From Cristatella mucedo (lineage: Eukaryota > Bryozoa > Phylactolaemata > Cristatellidae): a stretch of 64,000 nt of DNA. This document shows, in pieces, positions 17,851 through 63,900 of the stretch; positions within the stretch are counted from its first letter, which is position 1; every line of letters begins with the position of its first letter. The DNA is taken from the NCBI GenBank assembly GCA_009760855.2, contig WPIO01000001.1, positions 16,965,001 through 17,029,000 on the forward strand. Direction: 5' to 3'. The notes below the pieces were generated by a model, which had not been told where the DNA came from, searched no databases, and saw nothing but the letters and a program-made list of their open reading frames with translations. The position numbers and the translations under genes were made by a program.

Positions 17851-18720
17851 GTCTGAGTGAATTGCCATTTGCTTGCTTGAATGTTCTGAAACTTCGTACC
17901 GTGCAACCAAGTACAAGAGCGATACTCGTGCCTAGAATGAGATTGAGTTTGCTGAGGACACTATGTCAAGTGTATTGTTACAATTATTTCATTACGCGTG
18001 CTTTGATTATTTATCTTTGTCTAATTTAGTGCATTTTACTAATCAAGAGTCCATCCAACCTACCAGCTACCGTAAGTATCTTCTTGCCGGCTTGGCATGA
18101 TTAACAACGCACGATACCTCGCTTGCAATTATCTCTTATTTATCGCTTCTCTTATAGCGAGTTGTCAAGCACCTGTCTACATATTCGGCTCTCTCAGCAC
18201 ACTGCACAAATAATTAATGCCATTAATTTCGAAATAGGTAAAGAGCCACTTGTGCCACTTTAATAAATTCAAGAAAATATGCGAGGGTTTTGGTGTCTGA
18301 AGACACAGCACCAAGTGTGACTGCCTGTGAATCTAACGCAGTTACAGCCACAGAACTGAACTATCCTTAGCTGACCAGCGATTGCCAATTAAATGCTGGC
18401 TTGTCGTGGCTTTGCAGACGAGATAAATTCCTAGAACAAACTTTAAACTTGAGGCTACAAGTGACGAGATGATTGATTACAGTTGATTTGGTTTTTGAAG
18501 TGCACTAGATGAGCATATGCTGATGAGGTTCAACTAGCTTCTCTACGAGTTACCGGTTTGGAGGGGATGTAGAACTTCTTTGGACGAGGTTTTCTGAAAA
18601 TACATGGGCTCAAAGTTGTTTGAATTAGAGCTTGAGTCACGATCAGACGACTTCGGGCTAAGCAGTTTGGTGAAGACATATTTTTTTATGAATTTTACTG
18701 CTTTCGATTGCAAAACTCGG
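17851..18720. other. AT-rich unique sequence, nothing recognised
   Basis: No open frame of note and no repeat recognised by eye. It lies between LINE remnants and a long (GA)n array. Confidence 0.5.
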
Positions 18721-18727
18721 AGGGAGA

Positions 18728-19235
<508 letters not shown>

Positions 19236-23397: not shown

Positions 23398-23928
23398 AAT
23401 CCGACGGGGACCTGAGAGGTGCTCTCAATGGCTTCATACAGAGCAAAGTTCTCACGCTGACCCACAAGGCCAAGGCCACGGCTTGGCCCCTTCGTACCTA
23501 GCTGAACTGCTGCACTAGTTTTAGCTTCTTCGTGCCATCAGGTCCTGCATGGACAATAAATTAGCTGCTCCACTCCACTTACAGACCGTTGGCGACAGAA
23601 GCTTGAGCTCTGCAGGTCCTAGACTGTGGAACTCGCTTCCACAAGTCTTACGCAACGGCAACTACTCTCCTGCTTCCGACTATGGCTCATCCTTTTCAGC
23701 GGCCCTGAGCTGATACTTCCATGCTTCTCACTACCTGAACTGCTCTCATGACTCTGCTATGCTTCTCACTTTCTCTTTGATGTGTGAGACGAAGTCTATT
23801 GACTACCAAATGCGTTCCGAAAACTGCTTAGGCTGTGAGTGTGCTATACAAAAGCTCTCCTGCGTTAACACCCACATTGTCTTTATGGCTTTGTGGAGGG
23901 AGTTGCAGACGGAGATACATACATTCAC
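23398..23928 (+). mobile_element. LINE-B 3' region, decayed
   Basis: On plus, CAAAGTTCTCACGCTGACCC begins a region that matches the minus strand of 63125-63860. It is followed by GLAPSYLAELL-like residues, then LSSAGPRLWNSLPQVLRNG-like residues near 23600-23660, then a 3' untranslated region ending GTCTTTATGGCTTTGTGGAG, GTTGCAGACGGAGATACATA. The LWNSLP block is the conserved last motif of this class of LINE polymerase. Frameshifts are present. The 3' end differs from LINE-A, so I treat it as a second family. Confidence 0.75.
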
Positions 23929-24410: not shown

Positions 24411-26610
24411 GTATACTCGATTTATTGATAAAAAAGGGTGAACGATACTTTGGGAGTCACTCTGCTCATGTCGTGTAAGCCTAGTGTAAGTGTAAGCCCA
24501 TTTCGTTTAAACTGCGTTCAAGTGGTTAGACTGGGAAAGCGGCCCTGACATCGACGCCATAAGTGCTGAGTCACGGAGATGTTTAAGTAAAGTATTTACC
24601 TTCCTACAATTAATGAGACTCACTCACATACTCGTGAGCGTTACCATCGAACTGAGTTTGAACTCTAGTGTCGAAATGGTTGACGGTCTTGCTGAAAAAC
24701 TAAAATTGTGATCTTGAGCTATAGATATTTATCCACCGAGTTTGAAATTCGAAACTTTATAGTCAAGTCAGTAGAAAGGCTACGCGATCTCATGAACTCC
24801 CAGATGCCTTTATCGTTTACTTGGAGGCCAATTCGTGCTTGTAAGCAGTGTTGACATTCAGTATGCGTGCCCGTGCCAATGCCGACCGTCGATATGCTCA
24901 CATGAGACCAATTTCCTTTCTTTAGAGGTAAAAAAGACACACACAAAAGCCGGCCTCGCAAGCTAGGTTAGGAAGAAAGCAATCGGTCATCGCCTCATTT
25001 CTGTCAAGCAGCTTCAAGCAACGCGAATAATAGAACTCGCAAAATAAAACGAAGTTGCCCAAGCACGTCACTGCTGCTCACAGTTTGATAATTAAAAAAA
25101 CGTAGTTGATGCACCCCAACGCAATTAAATCTACAACTAGTTGAGAAAGCATTAGAATTTGCCTCAGCCATTACGTTGGTACGGAAAGCCGACAGAGCCA
25201 CACGGTGTACACTTTAATTTTTAAACAATAGATTGTAGTTTAGACCGGCAACGAATCAGAAGTCCTGTCATAAGCGAAGCTATGTCCTTGAGAACTAAGC
25301 TCCGCCCCTTAAGCAGACGCCCTCAAGAGGAACAGTGCATACTTGTTAACAAAGAAGAGCGCGAATTTTCAGTTGGGGTTCTGATTTTAAGTATATTGAT
25401 TTTACTCATTTGCGGTTGTACGAAATTCAGGCAGGTAGACAGCAAAGATTGTTGCAGAAAGAGTAGACGGCCTCGCTTCGATATGAAAACACCGTGCTTC
25501 ACTTGATAGCACGGATAAAACGCAAGGTCGGCCGAAGCCTCACAGCCACAAACACTAGCACCAGACCAAATTCTAGTTTTGGTGACGCTTGCCTTGCAAC
25601 GAAAGCCCATATAGCCGCTGCGACTGAGCAGCATTGCTGGCATCGAGGTCACAGCTCCCCGCGTTGGCAATCGGTGATCGGACGTTAATGTAGATTCATC
25701 GCGTAATGCAACACTCTAATACCTCGTAGAACCAGGGGACCTGTCTCCTGAAGGAGTATCATGGGACTAGCAAAATGGCATGACTTTCAAGAGGAAGCGA
25801 TGTAAATCTCACTTTTATCTAGAGCCACATGTGGCTTCGCATGGCATCATAAGGCTGGTTTAAAGTGAGTCTTGCTGAGGGTGTTTGTCAACGATTGATG
25901 ATGTATGATTAATGCGACGAAGTGACGCTGCTTTCTGTCACCAATGCAAGATCTGTAATTCTCGCACCAGCAGTGTCTCCAGGAAGTTTCCCTACTTACA
26001 TTTAAACAATTTCAAAGTGCTGAATAGATCTCAGCTTGTGGTCAAGCCCGAAGTAGGGAGATCGACATTAGCAAGATAGGTATCACCTAATTTTCAGTTG
26101 TTAATCATTGATTTGAGAGGCTATCAAAGATTGCAAACCATCACCCAGATGAGATGCCGTAGTCACTAGCAGATCCCAGATGATGCTTTGCTGTTGCCGT
26201 TTGTCCAATCGAATTTCGTGAAAAGTGAAATCCTTCATTGTGCTAGGCGAATGGGTGAATGAATTTGTCTACGTAGAAAATGTGTACCATAATGTTGTTC
26301 TCCAGAAAAAGGTTACCTCGTTGATCAGAAATTCTAGGATATGACATTGCTCTCTCATTTGCACCAGGCTTGATAAGAGTCTGCTATCACACAGCCTCTG
26401 AGTTCGACTAAAGAGGTACACTTCTATAGGACGCGGCGTCACGCACATCACGATCCGGTGTAGTGCATTCCTTAAGAGCAGCGACTGTAAATGTTGAAGG
26501 TTCACATTTCTTGGTAAATTAATGGCCACCTGAAGAAAAATTAGGGTTGGTGAGGAGAGTGGCTAGACAGGTGGCAAAACGTCCGTGGAGCTAAATTCTC
26601 GCTCCTCAGA
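24411..26610. other. Unique sequence, no gene recognised
   Basis: Frames up to 115 codons (minus, 25323-25670) show no recognisable domain. No repeat or RNA gene was recognised by eye. Confidence 0.5.
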
Positions 26611-26613
26611 ATC

Positions 26614-26800
26614 AAGCGGCTCTCAGCCCGTGGGTCGCGATTTCTTTGGCGGTCGAACGACTCCTTCACAGGGGTCGCCTAAGACTGTCGGAAAACGCGC
26701 ATTTCCACATTTCGCACACAACAATTTTACGGTTGGGGGTCGCCACAACATGATGAACTGTATTAAAGGGTCGCAGCATTAGAAAGGTTGAGAACCACTG
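26614..26800 (+). mobile_element. SPIN-like hAT miniature inverted-repeat transposon (MITE)
   Basis: The right end, read inward on minus, is CAGTGGTTCTCAACCTTTCT. The left end on plus is AGCGGCTCTCAGCCCGTGGG, the degenerate partner of the same inverted repeat (CAGYGGTTCTCAACC). Internal blocks GGTCGCCTAAGACTGTCGGA, ACGGTTGGGGGTCGCCACAA and CTGTATTAAAGGGTCGC follow, in order, the sub-terminal sequence I recall for SPIN ('Space Invaders') hAT elements. The middle, including any transposase, is missing, so it is a non-autonomous 187-bp element. SPIN is known for horizontal transfer between distant animals. A perfect 8-bp target duplication is not visible: AGCTAGAT on the right, and only AGCTAAAT at 26589-26596 on the left, about 18 bases away from the inverted repeat. 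Confidence 0.85.
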
Positions 26801-26954
26801 AGCTAGATAGACAATCGTGCCAAACGCTAATGACAAGAAGAACTTAAGGAGTGCTGTATTAACCCACGGCCATAATTTCCAGCGAAAATTCAAAGATATA
26901 TGCACCGGATATCGGGTTAGGATCATTAAAATTTCAGATGAAAAGTAGGGTGAA

Positions 26955-28149: not shown

Positions 28150-28592
28150 AGAAGCCTTGCATTCAACCTAGCCGAACTGCTGCACAGGTTTTAGCCTCCT
28201 CCTTCGCGCCTCCAGGGCCTCAACGGAAAATTCATTAGTTGATACATTCCCAAGCTTGAAGACCTCAGCAACAGAAGCTTTGCTAGGTTGTTCCTAGACT
28301 GTGGAACTAACTTCCACAATTCTTACGCAAAGACATCTATTTTCCTGCTGCCAATTATGGCACATACGATCCAGCGGTCCTGAGCTGCTGCTTCCATGTT
28401 ACTCACTACCTCAATTTCTCTCCTGACTCAGCTATGCTTCCCACTTGCTCTTTTTTGTGAGATGCAGTGTCTCTTGGCTACTGCACGCGTACCAAACGCC
28501 ACCTAAGCTTTGAGTTCGCTATAGCAAAACCTCATAAGCAAACCCTTCTCAGTCTTTGTGGCTTTATAGAGTTACAGGCGGAGACACACGAC
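28150..28592 (+). mobile_element. LINE-B 3' region, decayed
   Basis: CTAGCCGAACTGCTGCACAG matches the YLAELLH block of the copy at 23.5 kb. GAAGCTTTGCTAGGTTGTTC and CTAGACTGTGGAACTAACTT follow (the LWNSLP region, mutated). The copy ends GGCTTTATAGAGTTACAGGC, GGAGACACACG. Many stops; inactive. It lies about 1.9 kb beyond the sim exon donor, inside the presumed first intron. Confidence 0.7.
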
Positions 28593-30438: not shown

Positions 30439-30445
30439 ACGTACC
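30439..30445 (-). other. Splice donor of sim exon 1 (G|GTACGT)
   Basis: On the minus strand the exon's last base is 30445 and the intron opens GTACGTGC from 30444. The conserved bHLH reading ends here. Beyond it the frame continues into Arg/Pro/Ala-rich sequence unlike any SIM protein, which supports splicing rather than read-through. The intron start also contains TACGTG, the core that SIM:ARNT dimers bind; this is probably coincidence with the donor consensus. Confidence 0.8.
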
Positions 30446-30619
30446 GTGGGGGTAGGCGCCCCGCAAGCGTAGGTAGGACGTGCACAGGCGTATTATGGAC
30501 GCCTTGTCCAGCTGCGACGTGACACTCGACGGCAGTGGAAGTAAGGCGGCCAGGTCGCCGAACGCTTGGCTCTCCTTTTCACGACGGGTCTTGGCAGCGC
30601 TTTTGGGCTTTTCTTTCAT
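30445..30619 (-). CDS. sim: First coding exon of a single-minded (SIM) type bHLH-PAS transcription factor
   Basis: SIM proteins are nuclear bHLH-PAS factors that pair with ARNT/Tango and bind ACGTG-core sites; in animals they direct midline and neural development. The exon begins at the ATG at 30617-30619, giving the MKEK start shared by SIM proteins, and encodes 58 whole codons plus one base. The basic region is [12 protein letters not shown] (residues about 6-17), helix 1 about 16-27, the loop [15 protein letters not shown] about 27-41, and helix 2 [18 protein letters not shown] about 42-59. TRREKE and C/TTSYL separate SIM from trachealess/NPAS1/3 (SRRGKEN, TISYL) and HIF (SRRSKES). It ends on minus at CACG|GTACGT, a phase-1 splice donor at the glycine of the FPEG-like position where vertebrate SIM exon 1 also ends, as I recall. 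Divergences such as GDLAAL for ELAKL and CTSYL suggest a fast-evolving lineage. PAS exons were not found here. Confidence 0.9.
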
Positions 30620-34660: not shown

Positions 34661-34727
34661 GAGCGCGCCTTGAGAAGCGGCGAAGCGTCGCCCCAGGCGA
34701 CGCTTAGCCGCTCCTCAAGGCGCGCTC
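34661..34727. other. Near-perfect 32-bp inverted repeat (67-nt hairpin)
   Basis: The left arm 34661-34692 and right arm 34696-34727 are reverse complements over 32 positions with only two mismatches, separated by three bases. The arms start GAGCGCGCCTTGAGAAGCGG and TTAGCCGCTCCTCAAGGCGC (the second is the right arm's inner and middle part). Such a stem-loop is far longer than chance would give. It could be a young fold-back element, a hairpin RNA precursor or a cruciform-forming site. It sits about 4.1 kb upstream of the sim ATG in CpG-rich DNA. No open frame of interest crosses it. Confidence 0.85.
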
Positions 34728-38930: not shown

Positions 38931-39820
38931 AGAGCAAGGTTTTACTCTGATCGACGAGGATCGCTGTGTCTTGGCTCTTCGCTACTTAGCTGAACTGCTT
39001 AGCCAGTTTCAGTCTCCTCATATCCATAGGTCCTCCACGGACAATATATATATATATGAGCTTTTCTATTCCTTCGTTTCTTGAATGTTGGTTGTAGGAT
39101 GTGGAGCTCTCCTCACAGTTCTTCTCTCCCGCAGTACACTATAGCACATAATTTCCAGCCATTCCGTTTGGCCTCTGCCACGTTACTCACTACACAGACT
39201 GCCCGCCCGAATCAGCTATGCTTCTAATTTTGTTTCTGTTTCGCGGGATAGAGTTTTTTGGCTACCGTATTCATCACCAAAAGCCGCTCAAGCTTTCGGT
39301 TCGTTATACGTAACTCACCAGCATACCACCCACTTAGCTTCTTCTGTTCAATTCCAGCCAATACCCGTCTATTAGCCTAGTTGAACAGCTTCAGCTATTT
39401 TAACCACTACGTTATAAATGAAATCTAAATATCAGCTTCCACAGTAATTCTGGTCTCAGGTACAAACTAATTTAGAATTTGGTATCACATTTAGCTTGTT
39501 TGGCTTGTCTCCAAAGCATTGAGTGTCGCATATCAAGCAAGTATTCGTCACGAATTTAATAAGTTTCTTTGATACTTTACATTACACGACAAGGATTGGA
39601 ACGTTGGCTTGTATAACGCTGCTAAAACCAATAGGCAGGCTGTAATGATGACCATACAGGCAACCATATTGTCGTTTAGAGAAGAAGTCTGTTGGCTACC
39701 GAATGCTTACCGAAAGCCGCTTAGGCTGACCGTGCGCTATACAAAACTCTCCTGCGTAACACCCACATAGTCTTTATGGCTTTGCGGAGTTACAGACGGA
39801 GATAAATTACATTACATTAC
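38930..39820 (+). mobile_element. LINE-B 3' region, interrupted copy
   Basis: CTTAGCTGAACTGCTTAGCC matches the YLAELL block, followed by a decayed LWNSLP region and 3' untranslated sequence to about 39365. Unrelated sequence intervenes (39365-39685). The remaining 3' end then appears at 39686-39820: GTCTGTTGGCTACCGAATGC, CTTTATGGCTTTGCGGAGTT, ACAGACGGAGATAAATTACA and further ATTAC units. The last is the cleanest 3' terminus of the family in the window. A TATATATATATATAT run at 39043-39057 sits at the same point of the element where the 63-kb copy has a large (TA)n array. Confidence 0.75.
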
Positions 39821-47750: not shown

Positions 47751-47754
47751 GCAA

Positions 47755-49575
47755 TAATATTATCAAATAATAATACACTTTATGAAGCGCCCTCAGAAAA
47801 TTCAACCTCCTTCTGGGCAATTTTCATTTGCTGGAAAGGAAGCACGATCGAATGGTTAGCGGTTGCATGCTCAATAAACAACAAGAATAACAATATCAGG
47901 GGTGACATGCACAGCTTCAGCATGCAAGCATGGGTAGTGGCAGCATGCACAGTTTCAGCGCCCAACACCTCATAAAGGTCGAATTATAGAGACCCCACTA
48001 AATGCTGTCCTAAATAGGTGTGTTCTTAAGTTCTTTTTAAATGTCGTCAAGTCAGTGGATGTTCTGACGCAAGTCGGGAGTGAGCTCATGGCTTTGGGAG
48101 CATACAAGCTAAATGCACGGTCTCCAAAAAATTTCAGGTTTGTACGAGGTATTGGTAAACTGTTGGATTCCGAAAAGCGGGTGGTACGATGTTTGCCCTG
48201 GTGGGGAAGTAAATCTGAGAGATAGGCTGGAGCCAAAGAATGAAGTGACCTAAAAGTGAGTGACAAAACTTTGAAGTTGATCCGTTGCTTGACTAGTAGC
48301 CAGTGCAGGTCGGCGAGAAGTGGAGTAATGTGGCAACTGCGACGCTCACGACAGACAAGCCTAGCTGCCGAGTTTTGCACCAGCTGCGATCGCCTGATCG
48401 CACATGCTGGTAGGCCAGTAAGCAGTGAGTTGCAGAAGTCGAGACGAGATGTCACGAATGCATGGACCAACTTAGTCGTGGTATCCTTATCAAAACAAGC
48501 CCGAATTTTAGCAATGTTATTAAGCAGAAAATAGGCAGATTTGACTGTGGAGCTGATATGGTCGTCTAACGAGAGGTCAGTTAGAAAAAAGGACACCTAG
48601 ATTTCGAGCTGATTCAGCAGGAGATATGCTGGAAGAGCCAATTTTGAGCGTCAGCCTTCCCAATTTCTGAATCACACTGGGTTTGCCCATAACTAGTAAG
48701 TTAGTTTGATCATCATTAAGTTGTAGAAAATTTGTTGCCATCCATGTGCGGATGTCATCAATACATGCAGCAAGTGAGTTGAGAGAATTCGAGGTGCTAA
48801 TGGCAAATTATTGATGTTAGTTTTGTATGGCAGCAAAAGGTCAATGCGTCGTAGAAGCAGGGCAGCGGGAATAGGGTCCAAACAACTAGTTGTCGTCTTT
48901 GATTGGGATATGAGTTTCAGGACGACGTCACTAGTGACCTCTTTGAATGTAGACATTGAGGTGCTGCATGTAATTGAGGGACAGCATTCTAGGGGGAATG
49001 CTGCCATCTTAGGATAGACTCCCTGGTCTTGTCTATCCTGTTGACAAAGAAGCTAGAACAGCGATCAGCTAGGTCGTCACAGGGATCGTTACGTAAGGAG
49101 CTAACCTGGGAGTGGTTGAAGAGATGATTTGTCGTCGACATAAGCTTTTATGGATAGTGTATTGGTGATACAACAATTTTTTTTATAGAAGTTGGACTTT
49201 GCCTCTTTTAGGATCAATTGGTACGATATACAATAGTCCTGCATGCCCGTCGATGGACATTCAGTCCTGATCTTTTCTTTATACTTTTTCAAGCTTGTGC
49301 TTGGTAGACCTAGCTAGTTTAATGTCTGTAGTAAATTATAGGCCGTCTGGACAAAGGCGTACAGTGAGCTTTTTCAGGTGCTAGTTTCGTGTTATATCAA
49401 TCTACCAATGATGATGGGTCGGAATAGGGATTGAGCAGAAGAGGCGAAACAGATATCCTCGCAAGGACAGCATCGATGTCAAGGGTCATTCGGTTTCGTG
49501 ACTCACAGGTGATTTTAGAGGAGCAGGAGGGCACACATTGTAGACTGAATGAGATCTGCATGTGGTGAGATAAGC
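47755..49575 (-). mobile_element. LINE-A copy, longest in window, internally deleted
   Basis: Read on minus from high to low coordinates. 49300-49520 gives endonuclease-to-RT linker residues (PLLLNPYSDPSSLVD, YNTKLAPEKAHCTPLS). 49101-49292 gives KKYKEKIRTECPSTGMQDY. 48840-48990 gives the RT entry block FKEVTSDVVLKLISQSKTTT, SCLDPIPAALLL. The frame then jumps to sequence that normally follows the catalytic box (ACIDDIRTWMATNF-like, with a frameshift), so the RT catalytic core is deleted near 48800. 47970-48596 is an open 208-codon frame for the RT C-terminal region, from LTDLSLDDHI through HWLLVKQRINFKVLSLTFR to FKKNLRTHLFRTAF. The 3' untranslated tail and (ATT)-type end follow to 47755. Jockey/CR1/L2/Rex1-type superfamily; inactive. 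Confidence 0.9.
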
Positions 49576-59057: not shown

Positions 59058-59600
59058 GAATAATAATAATAATAATACTGCACTTGATAAAGCGCCCTCA
59101 GAGAACTTAATCTCTTTCTAGGCTCTTCACATTTGCTGCAAAGGGAAATGCAATTGAATGGTAAGTAAAATCATGCTTGAATAAAAAACAAAATGAGTAG
59201 TATGGTTAGGGGTGACATGCACAGGGTCAGCATGCAAATGTGGTTAGTGGCAGCATGCACAGTGTCAGCACGCATAAGCACACGAAGGACGAATCACAGG
59301 GACCCACTAAATGCTGTCCTAAATAGGTGTTTTTTTAAGTTCCTTTTAAATGTGATCAGATTAGGGGATGTTCTGACGCAGGTCGGGAGGGAGCTCCAGG
59401 CTTTGGGAGCATATGAACTAAATGCACGGTCTCCAAAGGATTTAAGGTGTGTACAAGGTATTTGTAGACTTTTGGATTCCGAAAAGCGGGTGGTACGATG
59501 CTTGGCCTGATGGGGGAGTATATCGGAGGGATACGCTTTAGCCATAGAATGAAGGGACATAAGGAATAAAACTTTACCTGAAACTTTGTAGTTAAAAACG
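59058..59600 (-). mobile_element. LINE-A copy, 5'-truncated
   Basis: On minus, 59294-59560 encodes SMAKAYPSDILPHQAKHRTT, RFSESKSLQIPCTHLKSFGD, RAFSSYAPKAWSSLPTCVRT and FKRNLKKHLFRTAF, the last part of the LINE-A polymerase in one open frame. The 3' untranslated region (GCATGCTGACCCTGTGCATG blocks) and the shared tail follow, ending (ATT)n at 59058-59080. 5' truncation near 59600 is typical of target-primed insertion. The minus frame beyond (59711-60010, 99 codons) is not recognisably part of it and is unassigned. Confidence 0.9.
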
Positions 59601-60009: not shown

Positions 60010-60477
60010 AGGCTAATTTCAGCTGTCAAGTCATGCATCAAGAAACATGCAGAAAGTAATAGCTACCCTGTGAAGTCTAAATCTGCGTGACGAATATAAT
60101 TAAAAGAACTTATTGAGTCTCATTGTCAATTAAATCACTTATAGCTTTATCCCAGAAAGGGAAAAATAAAGGCATTTATCATTATAAATTTAGTGTTATT
60201 GGAGTTACGTTTCTATTTATAGTTAATATCATAGTAAATTTATAATGGATAAGTTTTACATCTGAAAAACTAATATCAATTCATTTCTTTAATATTTACA
60301 TGTTGCCTGAATGCTGAACATTTATTACCAATGGAATCTTTCAAAGTTGGAGAAGCTATTGTTTTTATCTTAGTGATTGATAAAATTAGTTTTAATATTA
60401 AGTGAAGTAATTAGAAGTAAGCTGTTTTAGAAGTTTTACAATTATGATATAATAAGAGTATTGATTTAATAATACTA
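60010..60477. other. AT-rich unique sequence, nothing recognised
   Basis: Strongly AT-rich with no open frame of note. Confidence 0.5.
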
Positions 60478-61470
60478 TTAATATTTATAAATTTGTATAG
60501 TGCCATCAAAGAACTTAATCCGAATCTCTTTCTAGGTGTTTTTTATGCTGTAAAAGAAGCACCATCGAATTATTAGTGGTAACATGCACAATGCTAACAA
60601 GCATACCATGGTTAGGGGCAACATGCTCAATGTCAACATATAAAATATGGTTAGTGGAGATATTTATTGTGTCAGAACGGATAGTCACAAAAAGGAAGAT
60701 TCACAAAGATCTACTAAATCTGTCATTCACAGATGCGTTTGAAACTTATTTTTTAAATGTCGTCAAGTCAGGGGATGTCTGTTGGAAGCCGGTTTCAGGA
60801 TTTCGGTAGCATGCGAACTGAAGGGATGGTCTCCAAATGATTTGAAGCTCGTGCGAGGTATAGATGAAGGATTCAAGTAAGAAAAGTGGATGGTCCAATG
60901 CCAAGCCTGAGGGGAATATTTCCGATAGGTAGGTTGTAAAAAGAGAATAAAGGAACAGAAAAGTCAGTGACTACACCTTGAAGTCGATACGCTGCTTGAT
61001 CGGGAGCCAGTGAAAAGTGGTGAGGTGTGGTGTGGCAACTGCGACTCTCCTAAAAGACGAGCCTACCTGCCGAGTTTTGCACCAACTGTAAGCACGTCAT
61101 CGCACAGGTCGGTAAGCAATCAAGTAGCGAGTTACAGATGTCGAGACAGGATGCCAAAAATGCGTGGAATGATTTGAATTGAGTATCGTTGTCTAAGGAA
61201 CCGCGAATTTTAGTAATGTTGCGTAGCTGGAAGTAGGCACATTATGCTGTGGAGCTAATGTATTCATCCACTGACAGATCGTTTTTTGGAACAGACCATA
61301 GATTTTGTGCACATGCAGGACGAGATATACAGGCAGTTCCAATTTTGTTAGTCAATCTTTTCTATTTCTGGGTCACGCTTGGTTTGCTCATTACTATTAC
61401 GATGATTTCATGTTTATTCAATTTAGGTAAGTTTGCAGTAGTCGATTAGTGGATGTCAACAGTACACTAC
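60478..61470 (-). mobile_element. LINE-A copy, more diverged
   Basis: The plus strand shows the diverged tail (GAACTTAATCCGAATCTCTT, TCTAGGTGTTTTTTATGCTG). It is followed by repeats of ATGGTTAGGGGCAACATGCT-type untranslated sequence, then the complement of the polymerase end (GGTCTCCAAATGATTTGAAG; CGAGTTTTGCACCAACTG) up to about 61470. All blocks are in the same order as at 47.8-48.7 kb but with many stops and shifts. It abuts the next copy head-to-tail. Confidence 0.8.
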
Positions 61471-61474
61471 TGCT

Positions 61475-63010
61475 ACTACTGCTAATAATACATAAGCAAT
61501 TGTGCCTTGGGGATCTCAATCTTTTTCTAGTCACTTAAAATTTGCTGCAAAGAAGCACGATCGAATAGTTAGTGGTATCATGCTCAATGAACAAAAAGAA
61601 CAACATGGTTACGAGTGACATGCACAGGGTCAGCATTCAAGTATGGTTAGTGGCAGCATGTGCAGTGTAAGCAATCATAGGCGCATACAAGTGGAATCAA
61701 AGAGACCCACTAAATACTGTGGTACATATATGCGCTTTTAGCTTCATTTTAAATGTGGTCAAGTCAGGGATGTCGTGACGGAAGTCGGGAGTGAGTTCCA
61801 GGCTTTGGGAGCATGCAAACTTAAGGCATAGTCTCCAAAAGATTTCAGGTTTGTACGAGGTATAGATAAGCAGTTAGATTCCGAAAAGTGAGTGGTACGA
61901 CGCTTAGCTTGATAGGGCAGTCGATCTGATAGATAGGCTGGAGCAAAAGAATGAGGGCACCTAAAAAAAGTGATAAACCTTAAAGCCGATGCATCGCTTG
62001 ACTCGGAGCCTGTTCACATCGACGAGAAATAGTGAGCTGTGGCAATTGCAATGCTCACGACATACATGCTTAGCTACAGAGTTTGGCAACAACTCTAAGC
62101 GCCTAACTGCACAGGCCGGTAGACCGGCAAGCAGTAAGTTACAGAAGTACAGACAGGGTGTCACAAATGCATTGACCAAAATAAATGCGGTATCCCTGTC
62201 TAAACAAGCCCGAATTTCAGAAATGTTATGTAGCTGGCAGTAGGAAAACTTTACTGAAGAGCTGATGAGGTTGCCTTTTGAAAGGTAACATTGGAAAATG
62301 ACACCTAGATTTTGAGCATATTCAATGGGAAATAGGCTGGTAGAGTCCATTTTAAGCCTTAACCTTTCAAATTTATAAATCATACTTGATTTGCCGATAA
62401 CCAGTAAGTTAGTTTTACCATCATTCAATCTAAGAAAATTTGCTTCCATTCATGTGCGAATGTCATCAATACATGCAGCAAGGGAGTTGAGATAATTCGA
62501 CATTCTGGAAGGCAGGGAGGAATCAAAGCAAAGGTATAGCTGGGTGTCATCAGCATACAAGCGAAAGCCTAGATTTTGCCTCACAATGACATCGGCTAAA
62601 GGGAGTTTATAAACAGTAAAAAGAACGGAACCGAGACCTAAGGTACCCCATATTTCAGAGTTTCCATGGATGATCTTTGTCCGTTCACCTCAATACTCTG
62701 GAGTTTCCCACTGAGATAGAACCTGAACCATCCCAGTGCAGTGCCAGCAATGTCGAGGGATGATAAGAGGCGCTCAAGAAGGACATAGCTATCGATAGTA
62801 TCAAAAGCTGCCGAAATATTGATTAAAACAAGCAGAGATATGCTACCCAAGTCTGCATTTCTTAGTAGTTTGTGATACACCCAACTTAATGTTGACTCCG
62901 TGGAGTGATTAGCTCTAGAACCTGGCTGGAAGTTGCTAGCAATGTCCAAAGTTTTTATACATTAGTTCAGCTGGTCTGTCATCAATCGTTGCAGATTCTT
63001 CGATAGTAAC
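61475..63010 (-). mobile_element. LINE-A copy with recognisable RT catalytic box
   Basis: Minus 62638-62949 encodes NFQPGSRANHSTESTLSWVY, then VLINISAAFDTIDSYVLLER, and LGWFRFYLSGKLQSIEVNG, up to KYGVP followed by a stop where the 'GVPQGSVLGP' motif belongs. 62534-62557 encodes YADDTQLY, the catalytic box. 61961-62449 is a 162-codon frame: FLRLNDGKTNLLVIGKSS, YAQNLGVIF, DTAFILVNAFVTPCLYFC. The remainder is decayed down to the tail at about 61480. It lacks the endonuclease and is inactive through the stop in the GVPQG motif and later shifts. It supplies the RT core that the 47.8-kb copy lacks. Confidence 0.88.
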
Positions 63011-63124: not shown

Positions 63125-63488
63125 TTTAATCTCTCTCCGCCTGTAACTCTACAAAGCCACAAAGACTATGTGGGTGTTAGACAGTAGAGTTTTGTAAAGT
63201 TCACTCACAGCCTAAGCAGATTTCAATATCCATTCTGTATCCAACAGATTTTGTCTCACGCAAAAGAGAGAAAGTGAGAACCATAGCAGAGACAGCAGAG
63301 CAGTCAAGGTAGTGATTAGCAAGAAAGTAACAGCTCAGGACCGCTGGAAAGGATGTGTTATAGTCGGCAGTAGGAGATTAGTTGCCATTGCGTAAGAATT
63401 GTGGAAGTGAGTTTCACAGTTTAGAATATGCAGAGCTAAAGCTGCTGATGCCAACGATTTTTAAGCGGAGAAAAGAAACACCTGATTA

Positions 63489-63581
<93 letters not shown>

Positions 63582-63900
63582 GTAATACGGGATTAGAGGG
63601 CACAAGGAGAATGAAACTGGTGCAAAAGTTCAGCTAGGTATCGAGGAGCGAAGCCATGGTGGTTCTTGTGGGTCAGCGTGAGAACTTGGCTCTGTATACA
63701 TTGTTCAACCAGCAGCAACACCAGCTCATTTAACAGTGGAAACGGGTAGTCAAAACTCTGGGACTTGAAAACTAGCCGTGCAGCCCTATTCATAGCCAGC
63801 TGCAGTGGCCTAGTTGCTTTCTTGTAGCCCAACCAAAAGGGACTTATAAAAATCAAGCCAAGACAGAACTAAGGAGCTAGTTAAATTTTTGGAAGGTACC
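63125..63900 (-). mobile_element. LINE-B 3' region split by a (TA)n array
   Basis: Minus 63593-63856 encodes FWLGYKKATRPLQLAMNRAA, RLVFKSQSFDYPFPLLNELV, then QCIQSQVLTLTHKNHHGFAP, RYLAELLHQFHSP: the RT C-terminal block in one open frame. The (TA)n array follows (63492-63578). The LINE-B sequence then resumes (63125-63480) with a degraded LWNSLP region and the 3' end GGCTTTGTAGAGTTACAGGC, GGAGAGAG. It matches the plus-strand copy at 23398-23928 on both sides of the array. Confidence 0.85.
63492..63578. repeat. (TA)n microsatellite inside LINE-B
   Basis: About 87 bases of pure TA at a point where other LINE-B copies have a short AATAAATTAG-like or short TA sequence. Confidence 0.98.

Follow-up and report, generated by a model that had tools for sequence, protein, structure and literature searches.

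Among transposons that have crossed between phyla, SPIN is a textbook example. According to excerpts of published reports, SPIN was acquired horizontally by Rhodnius prolixus and is also found in vertebrates, with non-autonomous SPIN_NA sequences described (PMC11614815), and it is present in a turtle (PMC4054807). In the snail Biomphalaria glabrata, a SPIN-like hAT with significant identity to SPIN is present at about 1,000 copies in an assembly without an intact transposase (excerpt of PMC5440852). Buster1 and Buster2 produced MITEs by internal deletion and are patchily spread across animals (excerpt of PMC4298943), and OC1 (OposCharlie1), which spread horizontally, has a non-autonomous form of 192 bp with a middle of unknown origin (excerpt of PMC3621081). 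The family described here is a further example of the known SPIN-type elements, SPIN-like elements having already been reported from a snail. It resembled the SPIN of tetrapods and Rhodnius in its ends, sub-terminal blocks and interior (as judged against a provisional SPIN consensus), and in its many non-autonomous derivatives. Unlike that SPIN, most of its sampled copies were of a 187-bp form whose middle is private to it, it resided in another invertebrate host, and its coding DNA was decayed where read. Like the Biomphalaria glabrata element it is a SPIN-like hAT in an invertebrate, a likeness of description rather than of compared sequences. Like OC1, which is another element and was likewise compared by description only, it has a short non-autonomous form.

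The copy under study was located in the window, which is the whole 64-kb stretch of DNA that was analysed. The first-pass annotation had proposed a SPIN-like hAT MITE here, and the element is real and lies within two bases of the range it had given (Table 1). Matching inverted ends had also been described. The right end was exact, the last bases up to 26800 (GGTTGAGAACCACTG) being the exact reverse complement of CAGTGGTTCTCAACC, but the left end was decayed, with 3 mismatches to the 15-base end motif. At up to 3 mismatches the window contains three matches to this motif, where 2.66 would be expected; since this count is close to chance, the ends by themselves prove nothing, and the end motif was rejected as proof on its own. 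The SPIN reference in all comparisons was a provisional consensus rather than a database sequence. Against this provisional consensus the whole element gave an alignment score of 116.5, compared with a maximum of 18.8 among 1000 dinucleotide shuffles and 17.4 for the reverse complement; elsewhere in the window, no place clear of the element scored above 17.1. The whole element is thus far above chance, with its internal blocks in SPIN order. Compared with a longer form of the provisional SPIN, 164/186 bases agreed. The copy differed from its family consensus by 18 substitutions in 186 aligned bases (K2P 0.112), plus an extra A near the left end. As the annotation had noted, the copy has no transposase inside it; a Pfam profile scan of ten window reading frames gave no hAT match, and among the matches listed in a genome profile search with PF05699 none lay within the window. 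No second copy of the element was found in the 64-kb window. An unusual hairpin in the window copy was also considered and rejected (z -0.77; 46/200 shuffles folded equally well). The window element is a dead copy, ordinary in itself.

Table 1. Positions of the window copy and its parts, and of genomic loci referred to in the text.
Feature	Position	Strand	Remark
SPIN-type hAT MITE copy	26613..26800	+ (family consensus orientation)	aligned core 26615-26800
Left terminal inverted repeat, decayed, CAAGCGGCTCTCAGCC	26613..26628	+	
Right terminal inverted repeat, minus strand reads exactly CAGTGGTTCTCAACC	26786..26800	-	
Sub-terminal block CACAGGGGTCGCCTAAGAC	26667..26685	+	257 exact copies genome-wide, reversed control 0
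3' sub-terminal SPIN-like block, limits approximate	26726..26785	+	
Right flank AGCTAGAT, near the family's nTCTAGAn-like target site	26801..26808	.	
AGCTAAAT, 7/8 match to right flank, 16 bp outside element	26589..26596	.	possible displaced left duplication
Full-length copy, ~3.29 kb	C111:23756955-23760240		5' end, coding blocks, 3' end in order
Full-length copy, ~3.1 kb	C133:3519333-~3522440		5' end, coding blocks, 3' end in order
Separate hAT family locus (L115)	C668:1-4800		
Separate hAT family locus (L116)	C110:3940000-3944500		
Separate hAT family locus (L117)	C19:1007500-1012500		
Separate hAT family locus (L118)	C222:7449000-7453500		

The genome searched has 688 contigs and a total of 572,011,866 bases. 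With the element as query, at least 41 matches were obtained including the window copy, a lower bound because 40 of 2094 first-look candidates were scored. The diagnostic 19-mer CACAGGGGTCGCCTAAGAC occurred exactly 257 times in the genome, whereas its reversed control did not occur. We used 71 loci for further analysis: 50 came from the 257 19-mer places, 20 from the 40 element matches elsewhere, and one was the window copy itself. The consensus, built from 64 copies, was 187 bp long with TCTAG-like flanks, and its ends were CAGCGGTTCTCAACC and CAGTGGTTCTCAACC. About 93 bases of the left end and about 80 bases of the right end surround a private middle, and the short form is read as a putative internal-deletion derivative. 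Taken over all 71 loci, the K2P distance to the consensus had a median of 0.074; the corresponding value for the 19-mer sample of 50 loci was 0.089 (loci with at least 150 aligned bases). Both samples were biased to well-kept copies. Most sampled copies were 4-14% diverged, and 64/71 loci lay at K2P 0.143 or less. The seven outliers (K2P 0.17-0.27) comprised two longer copies, L009 and L022, and loci truncated or altered past the 5' part. Since most sampled copies were 4-14% from the consensus, the burst would lie in the past, and, with 64/71 loci within K2P 0.143, the family is not freshly arrived. If the neutral rate is assumed to be 2 to 5 per billion years, this divergence would correspond to roughly 15-45 million years.

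The wide distribution of these copies also bears on whether vertebrate DNA carrying SPIN contaminated the assembly. The exact 19-mers were spread over many contigs, among them the one of 24.8 Mb on which the window lies, and the middle of the common short form was absent from the provisional SPIN. We found no support for vertebrate contamination of the assembly, and its probability is close to negligible.

The family shows both hallmarks of the hAT superfamily: its target duplications are 8 bp long, and its terminal inverted repeats are short. Flanking 8-mers matched at 7/8 or 8/8 in 36/71 loci. When the comparison was restricted to the 32 complete copies (39/71 loci being excluded as incomplete), 22/32 had a duplication of at least 7/8, compared with 14/992 swapped pairs and 0/32 when the comparison was shifted 16 bp outward. 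The preferred target of the family was an 8-bp nTCTAGAn-like site, as is that of SPIN. The window copy failed in this respect, its adjoining 8-mers matching at 1/8, or at 3/8 by eye if the start is placed at 26613. The 7/8 match 16 bp further out may represent a displaced duplication of this copy.

The 187-bp family consensus agreed with the provisional SPIN at 179/187 aligned bases, and terminal inverted repeats CAGYGGTTCTCAACC, the SPIN motif also given in the annotation, were present in it. A 35-mer from the interior of the provisional SPIN consensus, fixed independently of all genome sequence outside the window, was found once exactly and at 40 places within 3 mismatches genome-wide, with none for the reversed control. 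Four of these 40 places were read; three were longer copies of ~316-332 bp, and the fourth (L120) contained only the 3' part. L122 carried CTCTAGTG on both sides, and in L022 a longer interior was flanked by SPIN-type ends. Four longer copies (L022 and L121-L123) agreed with the longer provisional SPIN at 85.8-88.5% over their whole length; the ends of this reference repeat the shorter provisional consensus, and its interior is not fully independent because it was drawn up with L009 and L022 already known. Searches of viral_contigs, genome_contigs, phages and plasmids, all of which are non-eukaryotic collections, turned up no external SPIN sequence. Six element 15-mers had no match in a literature search, and five others matched mouse papers via the bare ends, which was little informative.

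These comparisons bear on the alternative that the element is a different Buster-family hAT, its ends looking like SPIN since transposase binding constrains Buster ends to stay alike. Buster elements are alike over ~106 bp of their ends, and Buster1 has subterminal repeats TGGGTCGCG near its ends (excerpt of PMC4298943); TGGGTCGCG was present in our family consensus too. However, the terminal repeats given in that excerpt, CAGGGCTTCTTAAAC for Buster1 and CAGGGGTGGCCAACCT for Buster2, were absent from the consensus, which has CAGCGGTTCTCAACC instead. Moreover, the provisional SPIN matched 179 of the 187 positions of the short consensus and the four longer copies throughout at 86-89%. Membership in a different Buster family is therefore unlikely.

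A transposase source for SPIN-type ends was sought among the longer loci. The element in L009 (1448-2570) had SPIN-type ends with CACTAAAT on both sides, and these ends enclosed a frameshifted stretch. By its motifs, we take this interior to resemble the C-terminal end of a hAT transposase of Charlie/Buster type; the label rests on these motifs because none of the broken transposase pieces tried had a hAT match in Pfam, NCBIfam or PDB. A DNA search of the genome with the L009 middle gave 34 matches from 33 candidates. At C111, C133 and C676 two query blocks lay 1.85-2.16 kb apart, the spacing expected if L009 lost the intervening part. C658 carried the 3' block, and C528 carried both blocks adjoining each other. 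The 5' end was joined at C111, C133, C676 and C528. Among the 40 matches scored for the 3' end, it was joined at C111, C133 and C528, the 3' ends of C676 and C658 lying outside these 40. Judged from their sequence, the ~3.1 and ~3.3 kb copies (Table 1) appear to join SPIN-type ends to hAT-transposase-like DNA that is broken where read.

The coding DNA of L124, a 1.4-kb piece of the C133 copy, read as broken pieces. With 150 of 267 candidates scored, a protein search with 104 joined L124 residues gave at least 149 matches. Among these, four loci were 56-98% identical to these residues, with a second C676 row at 40%, and their open frames were 93-135 aa long. Stops interrupted the match at 3/4 of the loci; the C111 match, in a copy read in part, had no stop (open frame 120 aa), so that extinction of the family is a presumption. 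The other 144 rows, among the matches listed, were 23-31% identical and were taken to be probable other hAT elements. The annotation had called for a search for a full-length transposase copy; two copies of ~3.1-3.3 kb were found, with coding DNA decayed where read. The consensus, the nTCTAGAn-like duplications, the SPIN-like interiors and the transposase-bearing copies with the same ends support the assignment of the element as SPIN-type. The SPIN-type identity put forward in the annotation is supported by the 179/187 agreement with the provisional SPIN, the target duplications, and the longer and transposase-bearing copies.

A second hAT family was encountered in the same genome. This family (L115-L118) was very homogeneous, with open frames of ~640 aa and many equal PF05699 scores, and it looks recently active. 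This abundant PF05699 hAT, with frames to ~640 aa, was considered as a partner of the short elements and was rejected, since no SPIN end within 2 substitutions occurred at any of the 30 loci (each 3,237 bp, with limited flanks) that were examined.

The host was characterized by its mitochondrial contig. C688 (L082, L083, L114) was mitochondrial and 21,008 bp long, with exact repeats of 1.8-2.1 kb in direct and inverted copies and one half rearranged between large repeats. Self-comparison of C688 showed no cox2-length repeat beside cox2. In cox1, AGA/AGG stood at sites where Ser is expected, while ATA and AAA stood at expected Met and Lys sites, respectively; this fits code 5, which argues against vertebrates and echinoderms. 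The gene runs F-nd5-H-nd4-nd4L-T-S-cob-nd6-P-L-nd1 and cox3-K-A-N presumably fit a mollusc-type lophotrochozoan order. These features point, with moderate confidence, to a lophotrochozoan host. Phoronids, brachiopods, nemerteans and entoprocts are a few changes away from the consensus mollusc mitochondrial order (excerpt of PMC4189740).

In the window, a minus-strand bHLH exon (30443-30619) is followed 3.6 kb downstream by the element. The exon matched Pfam bHLH_HIF1A (E 4.5e-14), had NPAS3 as its best PDB match, and was 71% identical to a provisional SIM-type protein sequence. This exon looks like the first exon of a SIM/NPAS/HIF-type gene and lies in a GC-rich stretch. No further (PAS) exon of the gene was found in the window with this SIM query, and the element may lie within the first intron of this gene. 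Other features of the window include a GC-rich self-complementary palindrome of 67 bp, ~90% matched (34661-34727), and long AG/GA microsatellites (11-263, 496-632 and 18720-19232). Repeat copies 67-80% alike (47753-48792, 59058-59562 and 60468-62500) resemble the C-terminal part of a non-LTR retrotransposon; the minus-strand frame 47970-48596 within these repeats had no Pfam match. A second interspersed repeat family, 73-84% alike, was present at 23436-23925, 28166-28588, 39679-39813 and 63127-63697.

Beyond what was observed directly (common ends, copy number, target duplications, and full-length copies with coding DNA decayed where read), a history of the family can be proposed. A full-length element of ~3.1-3.3 kb with a Charlie/Buster-looking hAT transposase would have entered the lineage, most likely horizontally, and would have cut and pasted itself and its deletion derivatives into nTCTAGAn-like targets. 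One derivative of 187 bp, which kept both SPIN ends around a short middle of its own, would have reached hundreds of copies with transposase supplied in trans. The burst would since have ended and the family would be extinct. The rival to this entry is that a SPIN-type element was passed down vertically over a very long time, which would accord with copies that are not very young. Against this, a non-coding identity of 179/187 between an invertebrate consensus and the provisional tetrapod SPIN is hard to keep for several hundred million years, and 64/71 sampled loci lie within K2P 0.143 of their consensus; vertical descent is very unlikely. Because non-coding DNA is nearly identical between phyla (as compared with the provisional SPIN), we infer that horizontal transfer would be its best explanation. 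With high confidence, then, the window element can be regarded as a dead MITE derivative of a SPIN-type hAT whose full-length parent would have entered the lineage, most likely horizontally, and whose 187-bp form would have spread in trans.

More tentatively, and with slightly less than an even chance in our estimation, the family may stem from an independent invasion by SPIN of a lophotrochozoan lineage other than the snails in which SPIN is already known, one that had a 187-bp MITE burst of its own and whose full-length parents persist in decay. If this were true, arrival, burst and loss would all be datable in one genome. An invertebrate host that retains both the short derivatives and their full-length parents would help to show the breadth and timing of the SPIN wave.
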